Origin: a virus
Virus record (IMG/VR): IMGVR_UViG_3300047557_003911
Location: 1-47,988 of that record
DNA: 47,988 nucleotides
Direction: 5' to 3' (one strand)
Below are positions 29,403 to 44,985 of the stretch, piece by piece (position 1 is the stretch's first letter; each line of letters begins with the position of its first letter). Below the pieces are notes generated by a model, which made no database searches, was not told the DNA's origin, and was given only the letters and a program-made list of their open reading frames with translations. The translations under genes were made by a program, and so were the position numbers.

Positions 29403-30065
29403 ATGAAGGATTATCGTCCTGCAGTTGAGCTAATTCGTAAATACGAAGGGTTCAATGAAAAGGCGTACCCTGATCCTATAACCGGTGGTGCGCCTTTTAC
29501 TTTTGGTTTTGGTAGCCAATATTATCCAGATGGAAGTCCTGTTCTTAAGAACCATTGTTGCACTGAGCAAAAAGCACTAGAGTACCTGCTCCATGAGTTA
29601 GAAATCATTGACTCCCTTTTGGAAAAAGAAAATGTAAAGCTTGATTACTGCATGAACCAAGCTTTGATTTCTTTTATCCATTCCATTGGATGGGAACCTT
29701 TCCGTTACAGCGAAATCCTGGATGACATTGAAAATGAAGAATGGTCAGAGGCTGTTGACTGCATGTTGCAATGGATTTTCGATCATGATGGCAAAGCTAC
29801 GGGAAGCCTTTTAAACCGTCGCAAAGAAGAAATTAATCTTTTCCTTGCAGAGATCAACCCAATTCAAGAATGCTCTCCCAATATTCTTCTGAAGGCATTT
29901 AGGAATTACACCGGTTCCCAACAAGAAATCGATGCCATTAAAGACTTAGAAGCCCTTATCAATCCATATGTTCTTACATCCTTTGCAAATGCTTTTAATT
30001 TGGATCGGACGAGCTGGATCGATGACCTCCTGGAGCAGGACGGATTGATTAATGCGTGGTCGTAG
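29403..30065 (+). CDS. GH24-type lysozyme (endolysin-like muramidase)
   Basis: 220 residues from ATG 29403. LIRKYEGFNEKAYPDPITGG followed by FTFGFGSQY shows the catalytic Glu (in KYEGF) and the D/T of the T4-type E-D-T arrangement. A conserved helical core (MNQALISFIHSIGWEPFRYS) and GSLLNRRKEEINLF follow. It cuts the glycan chain of peptidoglycan, for lysis or entry. The C-terminal 60 residues are an extra helical part. It lies just upstream of the nblA-like gene and far from the other endolysin gene at 39350. Confidence 0.87.
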   Translation: MKDYRPAVELIRKYEGFNEKAYPDPITGGAPFTFGFGSQYYPDGSPVLKNHCCTEQKALEYLLHELEIIDSLLEKENVKLDYCMNQALISFIHSIGWEPFRYSEILDDIENEEWSEAVDCMLQWIFDHDGKATGSLLNRRKEEINLFLAEINPIQECSPNILLKAFRNYTGSQQEIDAIKDLEALINPYVLTSFANAFNLDRTSWIDDLLEQDGLINAWS

Positions 30066-30092
30066 AATAAACTAATAAAAATCGTGGATGCC

Positions 30093-30383
30093 ATGGAAAA
30101 GTCGGTGGAATCGCGGCAGTTCGAGCTTCCCCTTGAGCTTCAGTTCTCCATGCGTAGGGCTGAGCTGGAAGCCCAGGAGATGACGTGGGAGCAGTTGTAT
30201 GCTGCACTCCTCAACCTGTACCACCAGCGTTTGATGGAATGGTTTGCGATTAAAGACATCCTGGCCGATGAGAACATCTCAATCGACTTTGACATCCCCA
30301 CCGACTTGGAATTAGTAGAACTCGCCGCCGCATTTGCATACGACGACGAGGATGATGATGATGACGAGCTTCAGCCTTTTTGA
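30093..30383 (+). CDS. nblA: NblA-like phycobilisome degradation adaptor
   Basis: 96 residues from ATG 30093 (a GTG at 30084 adds three). FELPLELQFSMRRAELEAQE, then MTWEQLYAALLNLYHQRLME and WFAIKDIL, aligns without gaps to cyanobacterial NblA (pattern F-L-x-L-E-x-QF, then S/T-x-E-x-L). NblA links phycobilisome rods to the Clp protease so the antenna is broken down. The C-terminus is extended by an acidic run (YDDEDDDDDELQPF) that host NblA, about 60 residues, lacks. A TAGAATAA motif lies at 30063-30070. Its 3' end overlaps the convergent DUF3310 gene by 13 nt. The family match was made by eye. Confidence 0.65.
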   Translation: MEKSVESRQFELPLELQFSMRRAELEAQEMTWEQLYAALLNLYHQRLMEWFAIKDILADENISIDFDIPTDLELVELAAAFAYDDEDDDDDELQPF

Positions 30384-30892
30384 GCTTCGTCTAATTGAAT
30401 AAGGCGATCCAAGTACCACTGTGCTTTTTTCAGTGATTCTGTTCCGCCTTTATGTTTCTCGCGCCAAATATACTTCATACAATTTGCCTTGCAGTAACCA
30501 CGGAACTCCTCGTTGGTTAAAGCCGCCTCGATGGCCTCAATGCACTCAATGCCGCCATCAGTGTAATGAGGTGGGTGATTGACGGTATCTGGAACAACAA
30601 CAGGAGTTTCTTCTTTTACTGCCCAGGGAACAGGGCAAACACCATCTTTGCATTCAGATGAAAACCCAGGAAGGATATCAGTATTGACGGCGGTACTCAG
30701 CGCATCAAGCCCCGTCGTTTTGCTGAGAGCATCCGCTCCTCCTCCTCCGGTTCCTCCAGCTCCAATACCAGAGTTTTTGGTCTTGGCGACGCTCCCATCG
30801 CCAAGCCTTGCTCCATCGATGGGATCAAACCAGTCGTTCCAGGACGTTGCCCCTCGAGATTCAATGGATTCCGCTCCAGCCCTTGCTCGCAT
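30371..30892 (-). CDS. DUF3310 protein (T7 gp1.7-like)
   Basis: 173 residues. The C-terminal 65 residues (VNHPPHYTDGGIECIEAIEA, GYCKANCMKYIWREKHKGG, KKAQWYLDRLIQ) match DUF3310, the domain of the T7 gp1.7 nucleotide kinase; a nucleotide-kinase role here is by analogy. The N-terminal 100 residues are Gly/Ser/Asp rich with a CKDGVCPVPW motif. Its first 196 nt overlap the next minus-strand gene in another frame, and the start (ATG 30892) is uncertain. Confidence 0.78.
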   Translation of the reverse strand: MRARAGAESIESRGATSWNDWFDPIDGARLGDGSVAKTKNSGIGAGGTGGGGADALSKTTGLDALSTAVNTDILPGFSSECKDGVCPVPWAVKEETPVVVPDTVNHPPHYTDGGIECIEAIEAALTNEEFRGYCKANCMKYIWREKHKGGTESLKKAQWYLDRLIQLDEAQKG

Positions 30893-31075: not shown

Positions 31076-31453
31076 ATGGCAAGTATATACAGTCCTTTAT
31101 ACGAAACAGGGCAAAGGTCCGGTGGTACCTCTGGTGCCGAGGTTTCAGACTTACGTCCAGAGCAGGCATATGACACAGATTTACGGCGCCTGGATCCAGA
31201 GGAAAGGGAAGTTGCTTCCTCTTTAAATAATCAACAGGATCGCGTTGCTCGTTTTACAAAAGCAGCAAAGAGTGCTGCAGCATATAAACAACGTTCCGAT
31301 ATTGCAGACCCACAGATTAAAGGAAAAACACCACGTAGTTCTCTCGACATAGGAGGTACTGTTATCCCCAACCTAGGCTCACGCTTTGGTCGGGGAGGTG
31401 GAACTAACTATGCCAATAAACCACAAGGACAATTTGGCAAAGCTTTTGGTTAA
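31076..31453 (+). CDS. Small Gly/Arg-rich protein, unknown function
   Basis: 125 residues from ATG 31076; the open frame extends further upstream but through the opposing gene, so I use the first ATG after the gap. The sequence is hydrophilic with an Ala/Lys helix (RFTKAAKSAAAYKQRSDIAD) and a Gly-rich C-terminus. Its TAA overlaps the stop of the convergent dCTP deaminase gene (TTAA). It resembles the small virion-row proteins near the start of the window in style. Confidence 0.68.
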   Translation: MASIYSPLYETGQRSGGTSGAEVSDLRPEQAYDTDLRRLDPEEREVASSLNNQQDRVARFTKAAKSAAAYKQRSDIADPQIKGKTPRSSLDIGGTVIPNLGSRFGRGGGTNYANKPQGQFGKAFG

Positions 31454-32049
31454 GCACGAGAGAAAACAACTTCTCTTTTTTGGTTTTGATACTTGCCTTT
31501 TCGATCTTGGTACGTTACCTCGCAGGGATTGCCACGATAGAACAGCAGCTGAGTAATGCCTTCATTTGCGTAGATGCGATTGAAGAGTCCAGTGCAGTTG
31601 CTGATCTCAAGCGTCAGATAACCTTCCCAACCACTTTCAGCTGGCGTGATGTTGACTAAGATTCCTGAACGTGCATAAGTAGACTTGCCCACTGCAACAA
31701 CTGTCACATCACCTGGAAGCTTTAACCGTTCTTGCGCAACTCCTAAGCAATAGCCGTAAGGCGGCAGCAAAAAGTACTGACCTCGTTCATCTTCTAAAAG
31801 ATCTGCTGGTTTCAGAATATCTGGATCAAAATTTTTTGGATCACAATCTCCAGCTTGTACCTTACCAAAAATCAAGCATTGCTCTGGAGAAAGCCGGATG
31901 TCATAACCGTATGAGCTGAGACCATAGCTAAGAAGCTTGCGACCATTTTCTTTACTGACCAAATGATCAACAAAGGGCGCAATCATCTCTTCTTTTTCAG
32001 CCAGTTCCCGGATTTCCCAGTCAGCTAATACGCTCATGACATGACTCAA
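31450..32049 (-). CDS. dcd: dCTP deaminase
   Basis: 199 residues. Signature motifs are SYGYDIRLS (about 46-54), VGKSTYARSGI (about 120-130), TPAESGWEGYLTLEISN (about 135-151) with catalytic Glu138, and a C-terminal GITQLLFYRG then TYQDRKGKYQ that covers the active site. It converts dCTP to dUTP, feeding dTTP synthesis for phage replication. The length is usual for bacterial and phage enzymes (about 190). No dUTPase or thymidylate synthase is seen in this window. Confidence 0.92.
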   Translation of the reverse strand: MSHVMSVLADWEIRELAEKEEMIAPFVDHLVSKENGRKLLSYGLSSYGYDIRLSPEQCLIFGKVQAGDCDPKNFDPDILKPADLLEDERGQYFLLPPYGYCLGVAQERLKLPGDVTVVAVGKSTYARSGILVNITPAESGWEGYLTLEISNCTGLFNRIYANEGITQLLFYRGNPCEVTYQDRKGKYQNQKREVVFSRA

Positions 32050-36697: not shown

Positions 36698-37243
36698 ATG
36701 AATTACGGAACACTTGCTGTTGATTACATTACTTATACATCTAACGGCAGTGGATCTACTGCGTATTTAAGTGGGTTTTTTACTGGAAGATTCCCTAGCG
36801 TTTCTACTACTGGTACGGTTTCTGGTACCACGGTAACTGGAAGCACAGGAAACTTTTTAACGCTTAATGCGGTCACAGGCATTTTTACCAGTTCTCAATT
36901 AACAGATCCAGCAATTATCGGTACAATTTCAGAAGATATCTATACTATTACTGACGGCGCTGCTTTTGAAGTGGATCCTGGAAATGGCAGTGTCCAATTA
37001 ATAACCCTTGGGTCTAGTCGAACACCAAAAGCCACTAATTTTGCGGCAGGAGAAGCGGTTACATTAATGGTCAATGACGGCTCTGCTTATACGTTGACTT
37101 GGACTGATTCAACTTGGGGAAGTGGTGGGGTTGTATGGACCGGCGGTTCTGCACCAACTCTTTCAACAAGTGGGTATACAGTTTTGCAATTTTGGAAAGT
37201 AAGTGGTCAAGTTTATGGGGCAAATGTAGGAGCAGTAGCATGA
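36698..37243 (+). CDS. Short fibre/tip protein
   Basis: 181 residues. The N-terminal half (TGTVSGTTVTGSTGNFLTLN) carries the same repeat as the long fibre gene upstream. The C-terminal half (about 95-181) is a different beta-rich domain (QLITLGSSRTPKATNFAAGE; YTVLQFWKVSGQVYGANV). It may be the tip or an adaptor that joins fibre to the propeller protein. Its stop overlaps the next ATG (ATGA). A TAAAAT box lies at 36665-36670. Confidence 0.78.
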   Translation: MNYGTLAVDYITYTSNGSGSTAYLSGFFTGRFPSVSTTGTVSGTTVTGSTGNFLTLNAVTGIFTSSQLTDPAIIGTISEDIYTITDGAAFEVDPGNGSVQLITLGSSRTPKATNFAAGEAVTLMVNDGSAYTLTWTDSTWGSGGVVWTGGSAPTLSTSGYTVLQFWKVSGQVYGANVGAVA

Positions 37244-38841
37244 GAATTCCTTTGGGGTTACGGGCGGCCGCAGGCAGTTCTTCAGGTGGTCCATGGAATA
37301 TCGCATCTGCAGTTTATAACGGTTCTCCAATAAATTCTTACTATGTAGGAACACAAGACTCTAATTGTCAGGATGTTTTTTTTAAACCTGATGGCACAAA
37401 GATGTATATTCTTGGTAATGGAAACGATAATGTATATGAATACAATTTATCAACAGCATGGGATATCTCAACAGCTAGCTACTTACAGAGTTTTTCTGTA
37501 GCAGCACAAGAGAACACTCCTCTTGGTATTTCGTTTAAAGATGATGGTACCAAGATGTATATTGTCGGTAGCACCAATGACACCGTATATGAATACAATC
37601 TATCAACGGCTTGGGATATCTCAACAGCTAGCTACTTGCAAAGTTTTTCTGTAGCAGCACAAGATACCAATCCTGGCGGTCTTTTTTTTAAAACCGATGG
37701 CACCAAAATGTATATTGTTGGCGTCGTCAACAGAATCGTATATGAATACAATTTATCAACAGCTTGGAATATCTCAACCGCTAGCTACTTGCAAAGTTTT
37801 TCTGTAGCAGCACAAGATGCCAGTACTCCTGGTATTTCGTTTAAAGATGATGGCACCAAGATGTATATTGTTGGTGCTGGAAGCGACAATGTATATGAAT
37901 ACAATTTATCAACGGCTTGGAACGTTACAACAGCTAGTTACTTACAGAGTTTTTCTGTCACATCGTATGAAACCACACCTAATGGAGTATTTTTTAAAGG
38001 TGATGGCACAAAGATGTATATAATTGGCAGCAGTGCAAACGCTGTGTATCAATACGATTTATCAACAGCCTGGAACTTAGCTACTGCATCTTTTACAAAT
38101 CCGACAACAAATTATTTTTTTATTGGAACACAAGACACAATACCCAGTGATGTTTTTTTTAAACCAGATGGCACCAAAATGTATGTTGCTGGTAGTACAA
38201 ACGACAATGTATATGAATACAATTTATCAACGGCTTGGAATATCTCAACAGCTAGCTACTTACAAAGTTTTTCTATAGTTGCACAGGAAAATTTAATTAG
38301 CGGAGTTTCTTTTAAGACAGACGGTACCAAGATGTATATTGTTGGTGGTACCAATGACACCGTATATGAATACAATTTATCAACGGCTTGGAATATCTCA
38401 ACAGCTAGCTACTTACAGAGTTTTTCTGTAGCAGCACAAGACGCATTTCCTAACAGCCTCTTTTTTAAAACCGATGGCACCAAAATGTATATTGTTGGTA
38501 GCATCAATGACACCGTATATGAATACAATTTATCAACAGCATGGAACGTTACAACAGCCAGCTACTTACAAAGCTTTTCTGTAACAACACAAGATAACAC
38601 TCCTACTGGTATTTCGTTTAAAGATGATGGCACCAAGATGTATATTGTTGGTGGTACCACTGACACCGTATATGAATACAATTTATCAACGGCTTGGAAC
38701 GTTACAACAGCTAGTTACTTGCAAAGTTTTTCTGTAGCAGCACAAGATACCGGTCCTATTGGCATCTCGTTTAAAGATGATGGTACTAAAATGTATATGA
38801 TTGGCACCGCAAGAGATTCTGTATGGTCTTATGACCTCTAA
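37240..38841 (+). CDS. Ten-repeat propeller-like receptor-binding protein
   Basis: 533 residues from ATG 37240, coupled to the previous stop. After a 45-residue leader, ten units of about 51 residues follow, each with DGTKMYxxG, a variable six-residue loop, VYEYNLSTAWxxxTASYLQS and FSVAAQ. Each unit would make one four-stranded blade, as in YVTN/lactonase-type propellers. The last unit is truncated at the stop. The loop after the GTKMYxxG strand is the most variable part. Beside the fibre genes and fibre chaperone, this is very probably the host-binding tip, but ten blades is unusual for one propeller. Confidence 0.8.
   Translation: MRIPLGLRAAAGSSSGGPWNIASAVYNGSPINSYYVGTQDSNCQDVFFKPDGTKMYILGNGNDNVYEYNLSTAWDISTASYLQSFSVAAQENTPLGISFKDDGTKMYIVGSTNDTVYEYNLSTAWDISTASYLQSFSVAAQDTNPGGLFFKTDGTKMYIVGVVNRIVYEYNLSTAWNISTASYLQSFSVAAQDASTPGISFKDDGTKMYIVGAGSDNVYEYNLSTAWNVTTASYLQSFSVTSYETTPNGVFFKGDGTKMYIIGSSANAVYQYDLSTAWNLATASFTNPTTNYFFIGTQDTIPSDVFFKPDGTKMYVAGSTNDNVYEYNLSTAWNISTASYLQSFSIVAQENLISGVSFKTDGTKMYIVGGTNDTVYEYNLSTAWNISTASYLQSFSVAAQDAFPNSLFFKTDGTKMYIVGSINDTVYEYNLSTAWNVTTASYLQSFSVTTQDNTPTGISFKDDGTKMYIVGGTTDTVYEYNLSTAWNVTTASYLQSFSVAAQDTGPIGISFKDDGTKMYMIGTARDSVWSYDL
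37388..38841 (+). repeat. Tandem 150-153-bp repeats in the propeller-like gene
   Basis: Nine full units and one partial unit follow each other. Many stretches are identical at the DNA level, including third codon positions (for example the TATGAATACAATTTATCAAC block), which points to recent duplication or gene conversion. One unit (about 38040-38150) has diverged most. Confidence 0.85.
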
Positions 38842-39349: not shown

Positions 39350-40369
39350 ATGATAAAACTACGTGATGCAGCTAAACATTACAAACAGTTAGAACATCAA
39401 GATGACGGTTGGGATTGGTTGCAAAGACAACTAACGCCAGCTCAATTAGATGAATTTGCTGTGCGTTATCGCAACAGCGAAAAAAAACATGAGCCTGCAC
39501 AAGAATCCTTTTCTAATACGTGGGAGGGTGTTCTTGCTGCAGGTAAAAAGGCAGGGGCTAAATTTCCTGAATGCGTTGCTGCACAATGGGCTCTTGAATC
39601 TGGTTGGGGTCAACACACATCAGGCAAAAATAATTTTTTTGGATTGAAAGGATCTGGCTCTAACGTCAATACACAAGAATTTATTAACGGTAAATGGATC
39701 ACAATTAAAGCTGGCTTTATTGATTTCCCTGATCTTTACACCTGCGTTACGTACCTAGTTGAGCGTTGGTACAAAGACTTCGGAAAATTTAAAGGTGTTA
39801 ATCGCGCTGCCAGTAGGAATGAGTGTGCACGTCTATTGGTTGCAGAAGGATATGCTACAGACCCCGATTACAGTACAAAATTAATTCAGATTATGGATCG
39901 ACAGCTCCAAAACATTGGAGAAAAACCTGATTCAAATCCACATAATAATAGCTTTGCTCCTTGGAGCCCGTTTACTTATAAAGTGACACCTAATATTACC
40001 TATGGTGAGCTAACACTTAATCAAGAAGCGCGACGTTTCACCAAGCAATATCAGTGTGATACGGCAAAAGAAATCTGCCTATTCCTGGAACGTGCCAGAA
40101 AACAATTTAACAATAAACCAATTATTATTACCAGTGCTTCGCGTCCGGAACCTATCAATACTCAGGTTGGAGGTGCCAAAAATAGCGAGCATACATACAG
40201 TGCGCCATCAAAAGGAGCCATTGACTTTTATATCCAAGGGGTCAATATCTATACAGTGCAGGAATGGTGTGACAAAAACTGGCCCTATAGCTTAGGCTAT
40301 GGTGCGCCCAAGGGGTTTGTTCATGTCGGTATCAGGGAAGGAAAACCAAAAGTACGCTGGGACTACTAA
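39350..40369 (+). CDS. Two-domain endolysin: glucosaminidase-like plus M15 peptidase-like
   Basis: 339 residues. Residues about 55-190 (ECVAAQWALESGWGQHTSGK, then NNFFGLKG and VERWYKDFGKFKG) form a GH73-type glucosaminidase with catalytic Glu83. Residues about 200-339 (ITSASRPEPINTQVGGAKNS, then EHT...GAIDFYIQG and GFVHVGIREGKPKVRWDY) match an M15_3-type DD-peptidase, with the SEH, D and HVG positions in place. One protein therefore attacks both glycan and peptide bonds of the host wall. A 61-residue N-terminal helical part precedes them. No signal peptide is seen. Confidence 0.85.
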   Translation: MIKLRDAAKHYKQLEHQDDGWDWLQRQLTPAQLDEFAVRYRNSEKKHEPAQESFSNTWEGVLAAGKKAGAKFPECVAAQWALESGWGQHTSGKNNFFGLKGSGSNVNTQEFINGKWITIKAGFIDFPDLYTCVTYLVERWYKDFGKFKGVNRAASRNECARLLVAEGYATDPDYSTKLIQIMDRQLQNIGEKPDSNPHNNSFAPWSPFTYKVTPNITYGELTLNQEARRFTKQYQCDTAKEICLFLERARKQFNNKPIIITSASRPEPINTQVGGAKNSEHTYSAPSKGAIDFYIQGVNIYTVQEWCDKNWPYSLGYGAPKGFVHVGIREGKPKVRWDY

Positions 40370-44625: not shown

Positions 44626-44985
44626 CTATACAGATTTTGTTGGAGTTATTGAACGTACTAATTCTTTTTCTTCTGTTGTTTGCGCTTTGAGTTTATATCT
44701 TAAAAACTCTGCGGCCTTGTGCGAATTAGTTGTGTCACCACAAGTATAGAGATCAATGGCTGCATAACCAATCTCAGGCCAGGTGTGGATTGAGCAGTGA
44801 GATTCAGCAAGTAATGCCAAGAGAGTCACACCTTGCGGATCAAATTTCTCGCCAATAATCCGCAAGATGCGTGCATTAGACATTTGCAATGCCACCTGCA
44901 TTAGCTCTTGAAGAGCGTTGTAATCATCTAGCAACTGTTTATCACAGTCGTAGAGATCAAGAATGAGGTGGCGACCGTTGCTCAA
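44626..44985 (-). CDS. speD: S-adenosylmethionine decarboxylase proenzyme
   Basis: 119 residues, TTG start overlapping the primase stop (TTGA). The self-cleavage motif ALLAESHCSIHTWPE is intact: cleavage between E61 and S62 would create the pyruvoyl group, with H67 and C82 as the other key residues. The enzyme makes decarboxylated SAM for spermidine synthesis. The length is that of the short bacterial class. Phage speD genes are known in cyanophages and are thought to support DNA packaging or host translation. Its coupling to the replication gene here is notable. Confidence 0.93.
   Translation of the reverse strand: MSNGRHLILDLYDCDKQLLDDYNALQELMQVALQMSNARILRIIGEKFDPQGVTLLALLAESHCSIHTWPEIGYAAIDLYTCGDTTNSHKAAEFLRYKLKAQTTEEKELVRSITPTKSV

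Follow-up and report, generated by a model that had tools for sequence, protein, structure and literature searches.

The question raised by this locus is whether a small cyanophage protein with an NblA-like core and an additional C-terminal part is an NblA at all, and whether it would act as one. NblA carries phycobilisome proteins to ClpC and participates in the disassembly of the complex (PMC7966870). Laboratory cyanobacteria made to express phage NblAs lose phycobilins or pigment (PMC9602691). We examined the gene in the window, that is, the whole stretch of 47,988 nucleotides analysed, which is the IMG/VR contig IMGVR_UViG_3300047557_003911 and belongs to the S-EIV1 cyanophage lineage; among isolates, Synechococcus phage S-EIV1 (KJ410740) is the closest to it. 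Judged by sequence comparison, the gene product is a divergent NblA homologue and its gene a core gene of this lineage. The features concerned are as follows.

29403–30065, + strand: phage lysozyme, directly upstream (PF00959, E 4.4e-16)
30093–30383, + strand: NblA-like gene (P0001), open reading frame with ATG start, 96 aa (PF04485, 26.6 bits, cut-off 25)
30123–30269, + strand: NblA core, residues 11–59, predicted two-helix hairpin (helices 14–28 and 32–59); gapless to host NblA, AlphaFold2 (AF2) model, dN/dS 0.049
30126–30146, + strand: altered N-terminal motif LPLELQF, residues 12–18, from alignments and column counts
30270–30338, + strand: conserved linker and third helix, residues 60–82, with invariant residues in 160 genes and an AF2 helix at 71–82
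30339–30380, + strand: acidic tail, residues 83–96, ending LQPF; predicted disordered, acidic in 133/133 distinct proteins
30371–30892, − strand: DUF3310 gene, convergent (PF11753, E 3.1e-19), sharing 13 nt with the 3' end of the NblA-like gene
31450–32049, − strand: dCTP deaminase, downstream neighbour (PF22769, E 3.5e-23)

A core gene at the end of the structural and lysis gene run

A GTG at 30084, three codons 5' of the ATG, is a possible alternative start, but sequence conservation of the family begins at the ATG and not at the GTG. The direct ortholog in S-EIV1, AHV82245, is annotated as hypothetical and is 68% identical to the window protein over 78 residues; counted from the same start it has 104 aa, with a longer acidic tail that ends in KELAPF. 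Both phages share the order lysozyme, NblA-like gene, two leftward genes, a rightward gene and dCTP deaminase, all in equal orientations, and the primase, S-adenosylmethionine decarboxylase (SpeD) and glycosyltransferase of the window also have counterparts in S-EIV1. The SpeD gene itself (44626–44985, − strand) overlaps the primase gene in the window and is likewise present in S-EIV1.

Stretches encoding relatives numbered 453 and 492 in two scans, whose sets overlap. A preliminary description of this DNA had placed the gene in a lysis-gene setting, and that setting recurs across the lineage: the NblA-like gene adjoins the lysozyme at the end of a rightward run of structural and lysis genes, and among 187 loci carrying it a lysozyme lies upstream on the same strand in all 175 with enough flank. 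The DUF3310 gene is convergent downstream in 169/169 loci with flank and the dCTP deaminase downstream in 151/151, all of these being counts of loci and not of independent genomes, since different scans can repeat a contig. The same association appears when the search starts from the lysozyme, with the NblA-like gene directly downstream in 82/82 loci with enough flank, the single remaining lysozyme locus stopping at a contig edge. Moreover, the NblA-like gene is better conserved than the adjoining lysozyme: outside the window's group, lysozymes are mostly 52–58% identical to that of the window, and NblA-like proteins near 70–80%.

Several further observations concern this part of the genome. 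The tail-to-tail overlap of 13 nt with the DUF3310 gene (30371–30383 in the window) is retained in 71 distinct genes, and the remaining relatives show a 4-nt overlap or none. A promoter and terminator scan of the NblA-like region gave nothing above chance. The lysozyme at 29403–30065 is not the only endolysin-type protein of the window: a second one, encoded at 39350–40369 (+ strand), combines a glucosaminidase and a peptidase M15 domain. The product of a gene at 37114–38841 (+ strand) is made up of numerous repeats, each about 46 residues long and nearly identical to the others (YIVG..NDTVYEYNLSTAWDISTASYLQSFSVAAQ); it matches beta-propeller-type Pfam families weakly and is possibly a tail adhesin.

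Homology to NblA

The relationship to NblA is carried by profile comparisons. PF04485 matches the window protein above its curated cut-off (E 8.1e-6; residues 11–57 against positions 1–47 of 50), and the window protein, used as a single sequence, aligns without gaps to Anabaena NblA (1ojh), residues 9–57 on 4–52, at E 0.026. A family profile built from 41 members has one significant match in the PDB, namely 1ojh (E 2.8e-4), and profile–profile comparison (hhalign) of the family with host NblA covers 52 columns without gaps at 33% identity (E 8.5e-7). We also ran a host-only profile made from seven host NblAs against all stop-to-stop frames, 2226 in number, that the window and S-EIV1 contain. 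The window frame ranked first (22.5 bits, E 2.6e-5) and the S-EIV1 ortholog second (18.1 bits), and the top score among 2000 shuffles of the window protein was 13.5 bits. The preliminary description had proposed NblA homology with a gapless core, and both parts of that proposal hold. Furthermore, AF2 with a 41-row alignment predicts helices at 14–28 and 32–59 (pLDDT about 83–91 by blocks), and a single-sequence run agrees with it on the hairpin. With an NblA profile match and a predicted hairpin in hand, neither of the outcomes that the preliminary description had named as speaking against its assignment was found.

The strength of the match differs within the family. PF04485 is the best Pfam family and matches 20 of 41 members at E<=0.01; it exceeds its cut-off in four of seven lineage records, of which one, at 125.8 kb, passes through a separate canonical NblA, and S-EIV1 reaches just 17.4 bits. 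Many non-marine members lie at or over the Pfam cut-off, and the host-only profile gives some marine members about 3 bits, the label ‘marine’ denoting a sequence clade with known IMG/VR relatives and not sample metadata. Calibration on phage NblAs gave 52 bits for Ma-LMM01, 45 for PaV-LD and 28.0 for S-TIP37, so that the window protein, at 26.6 bits, matches about as well as the NblA of S-TIP37. For S-TIM5 and S-SCSM1, whose NblA claims were made with more sensitive methods (PMC9602691), PF04485 gave no match.

Could the likeness instead be convergence of short amphipathic helices, the gene being a lysis or virion accessory? The lysozyme is always adjacent, short helical proteins easily yield weak matches, and Foldseek returned no NblA structure from the PDB and nothing significant among viral structures, the query in both cases being a small open hairpin, which makes a poor query. 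Such convergence is nonetheless very unlikely in view of the 52-column gapless profile match, the first rank among all 2226 frames and the fact that NblA is the sole significant match in the PDB. Other searches added little: tblastn of Anabaena NblA against phages gave no match even at E 10, no relative of the window protein was found among plasmids, and neither PHROGs nor NCBIfam offered an informative family. An identity as DUF4030 was discarded because the match lies under that family's cut-off. In the genome collection only two contigs turned up, both MAG-binned, and thus neither a host copy nor a prophage copy came to light there.

Altered contact motifs and a conserved extension

With cyanobacterial NblA (PF04485; 1ojh, 3cs5 from S. 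elongatus and 2qdo from T. vulcanus) the family shares, by gapless alignment, the two-helix hairpin of about 50 residues, together with a Leu/Phe pattern, an Arg after the helix-1 Phe-x-Met/Ile and a Leu-Tyr pair in helix 2. The positions through which NblA meets its partners are a different matter. PMC4103541, with reference to Karradt 2008 and Bienert 2006, describes two binding motifs in NblA, a highly conserved one close to the N terminus for ClpC and another close to the C terminus for phycobiliproteins. We assume that the LxxEQxF stretch is the ClpC motif of that description. This stretch (or EQxL) is present in the seven host NblAs and in those of Ma-LMM01, PaV-LD, S-TIP37 and one further phage, whereas the window family reads LPL[EHQ]LQ[FL]; among 160 distinct genes, 96% have Leu where the EQ motif has Gln and the others have Met or Phe, and the Glu is retained in 63%. 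The C-terminal Leu and Lys of helix 2 that are reported to contact phycobiliproteins are Leu51 and Lys53 in Anabaena NblA. In the gapless map Leu51 corresponds to Ile, Leu or Met at position 56, still hydrophobic, and Lys53 to Ala, Gln or Glu at position 58; a near-invariant Lys54 lies four residues before the latter. Since the hairpin is kept, the N-terminal contact motif is changed and the C-terminal one appears to be changed at its Lys, the protein is better described as a divergent NblA homologue than as a standard NblA. The case for Clp-directed phycobilisome breakdown, which the preliminary description had associated with host NblA, is thereby weaker for this protein.

The family also departs from host NblA in length. 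The window protein has 96 aa, the few host NblAs compared here have 54–71 aa, and the difference lies in a third helix and an acidic tail. This 37-residue extension (residues 60–96) is missing from those host proteins, in agreement with the preliminary description, which had however treated the tail as a trait of this one copy; it is instead conserved lineage-wide, occurring in all 133 distinct relatives, and has a predicted helix of its own. Its first part, residues 60–82, has the consensus EN-I-x-I/L-D/E-F-D-I-P-T-D-L-E-L...LA, in which E60, P69, E73 and L77 are invariant and Asp67 near-invariant among 160 distinct genes. From residue 86 on, AF2 pLDDT falls below 50, suggesting a disordered tail, and the last 18 residues include 6–14 acidic ones in each of the 133 distinct proteins. 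Across 347 pairs of moderate divergence among the 160 distinct genes, dN/dS was 0.049 for the core (11–59), 0.104 for residues 60–82, 0.137 for 83–91 and 0.177 for 92–96, figures that are descriptive because the pairs are not independent. The core is under strong purifying selection and the tail is clearly constrained. The NblAs of Ma-LMM01, PaV-LD and S-TIP37 are likewise phage-borne NblA-like proteins, but they keep the EQ motif, lack the window family's extension and belong to other phage lineages and neighbourhoods, the nblA of Ma-LMM01 lying near nrdB.

The very end of the protein invites comparison with single-stranded DNA-binding protein (SSB), whose C-terminal tail is an acidic tract ending in Pro-Phe and in which a free terminal Phe is essential. 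Most NblA-like members have such an end: PF terminates 97 of 133 distinct proteins, and forms such as PFFG and PIFG occur in 32. Mimicry of this tail, by which the protein would bind SSB partners of host or phage, draws further support from the 15 lineage SSBs examined, all of which have PF at the end, preceded in most of them by acidic residues, and from S-EIV1, where only two of 128 coding sequences end in PF, namely SSB and the NblA-like protein. A by-product of the DUF3310 overlap was considered for the PF ending and dropped, the ending being retained in 24/24 genes where that overlap is just 4 nt; the 13-nt overlap may place a constraint on the Gln before PF. The family nevertheless has no OB fold, the residue before PF is mostly not the usual Ile, and a free Pro-Phe, sought in all members, is absent from 34 of 104 distinct NblA-like proteins. 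It is the marine clade that breaks the pattern, its NblA-like proteins ending in FFG, IFG, FFI or ASF and its SSBs keeping PF. SSB mimicry was accordingly rejected for the family as a whole and could apply at most to part of it; as an account of the protein we rate it the least probable of those considered.

Candidate roles

The explanation that we favour, by a little over even chances, is that of a late-positioned NblA homologue that engages phycobilisomes or host NblA, perhaps by a changed protease route. The hairpin would dimerise as in NblA and would bind phycobiliproteins or pair with host NblA, and phycobilisomes loosened late in infection would mean less light capture and freed amino acids. 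The C-terminal extension probably gives part of the partner contact, whether with a protease, the phycobilisome or a phage protein, standing in for the contact that the altered N-terminal motif would no longer make in the standard way. The ClpC step is the least certain part of this mechanism. Several observations count against the explanation, among them the family-wide alteration of the ClpC motif, the absence, by gapless alignment, of a conserved phycobiliprotein Lys and the scores of about 3 bits in some marine members. Moreover, an auxiliary metabolic gene would not usually be so uniformly conserved or lie in a late-gene position.

The same observations lend weight to a retargeted NblA fold, in which the hairpin is kept and the protein would serve other proteins of the host or the phage as adaptor or blocker, with the third helix and tail as the recognition part. 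Besides the altered ClpC motif and the apparent loss of the Lys, a strongly constrained extension in every member, core-gene status beside late genes and the distance of part of the marine clade from host NblA all suit this account, which we consider possible though unlikely: the hairpin is still recognisably that of NblA, and many non-marine members score at or over the Pfam cut-off. A particular form of it, a lineage-essential protease adaptor or decoy whose ClpC contact has been rebuilt and whose third helix and acidic motif pick other targets, seems doubtful to us. Alternatively, the protein might antagonise host NblA by forming a mixed dimer unable to recruit ClpC, preserving the antenna during infection. 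A dimer-forming fold with an altered ClpC motif is the expected look of a dominant-negative form, and a passage of PMC7966870 citing Baier et al. 2014 has Synechocystis NblA acting as a mixed dimer; the other phage NblAs tested, however, promote pigment loss (PMC9602691), and antagonism appears improbable.

If the favoured explanation holds and the protein engages phycobilisomes, antenna dismantling would be a fixed part of the infection cycle in the S-EIV1 lineage; should it instead have no activity on phycobilisomes, we know of no earlier case in which the NblA fold was put to another use. Phage nblA genes are otherwise known as scattered accessories; in this widespread lineage the gene is present at all loci examined, and in structurally altered form. 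A 2017 survey lists the S-EIV1 group without nblA (PMC5332604), and in the literature covered, which was partial, we found none linking the lineage to NblA; an earlier mention, for example in Nadel et al. (2025, Nature), is possible. As S-EIV1 was isolated with a cultured host, Synechococcus sp. PCCC-A2c, dismantling and a new use of the fold can be told apart by direct test.

Other NblA-like proteins came to light alongside the family. The 125,842-base contig IMGVR_UViG_3300042503_000838 (G006; L084, L332) carries the extended NblA-like gene in its S-EIV1-like part; its other part has an endolysin, tail fibres and a different terminase, next to which a canonical EQ-type NblA is encoded, and the contig probably arose when the assembly joined two phages. 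From a MAG labelled Euryarchaeota archaeon SP67 (G008), two contigs encode NblA-like proteins of 113–115 aa (L196 and L197) that keep LxxEQQF; their C-terminal extension is also acidic but differs from that of the window family and ends in [DS/DA]IVLE.EE. At least one of the two has phage genes around it, so that a second phage group may possess extended NblAs as well.
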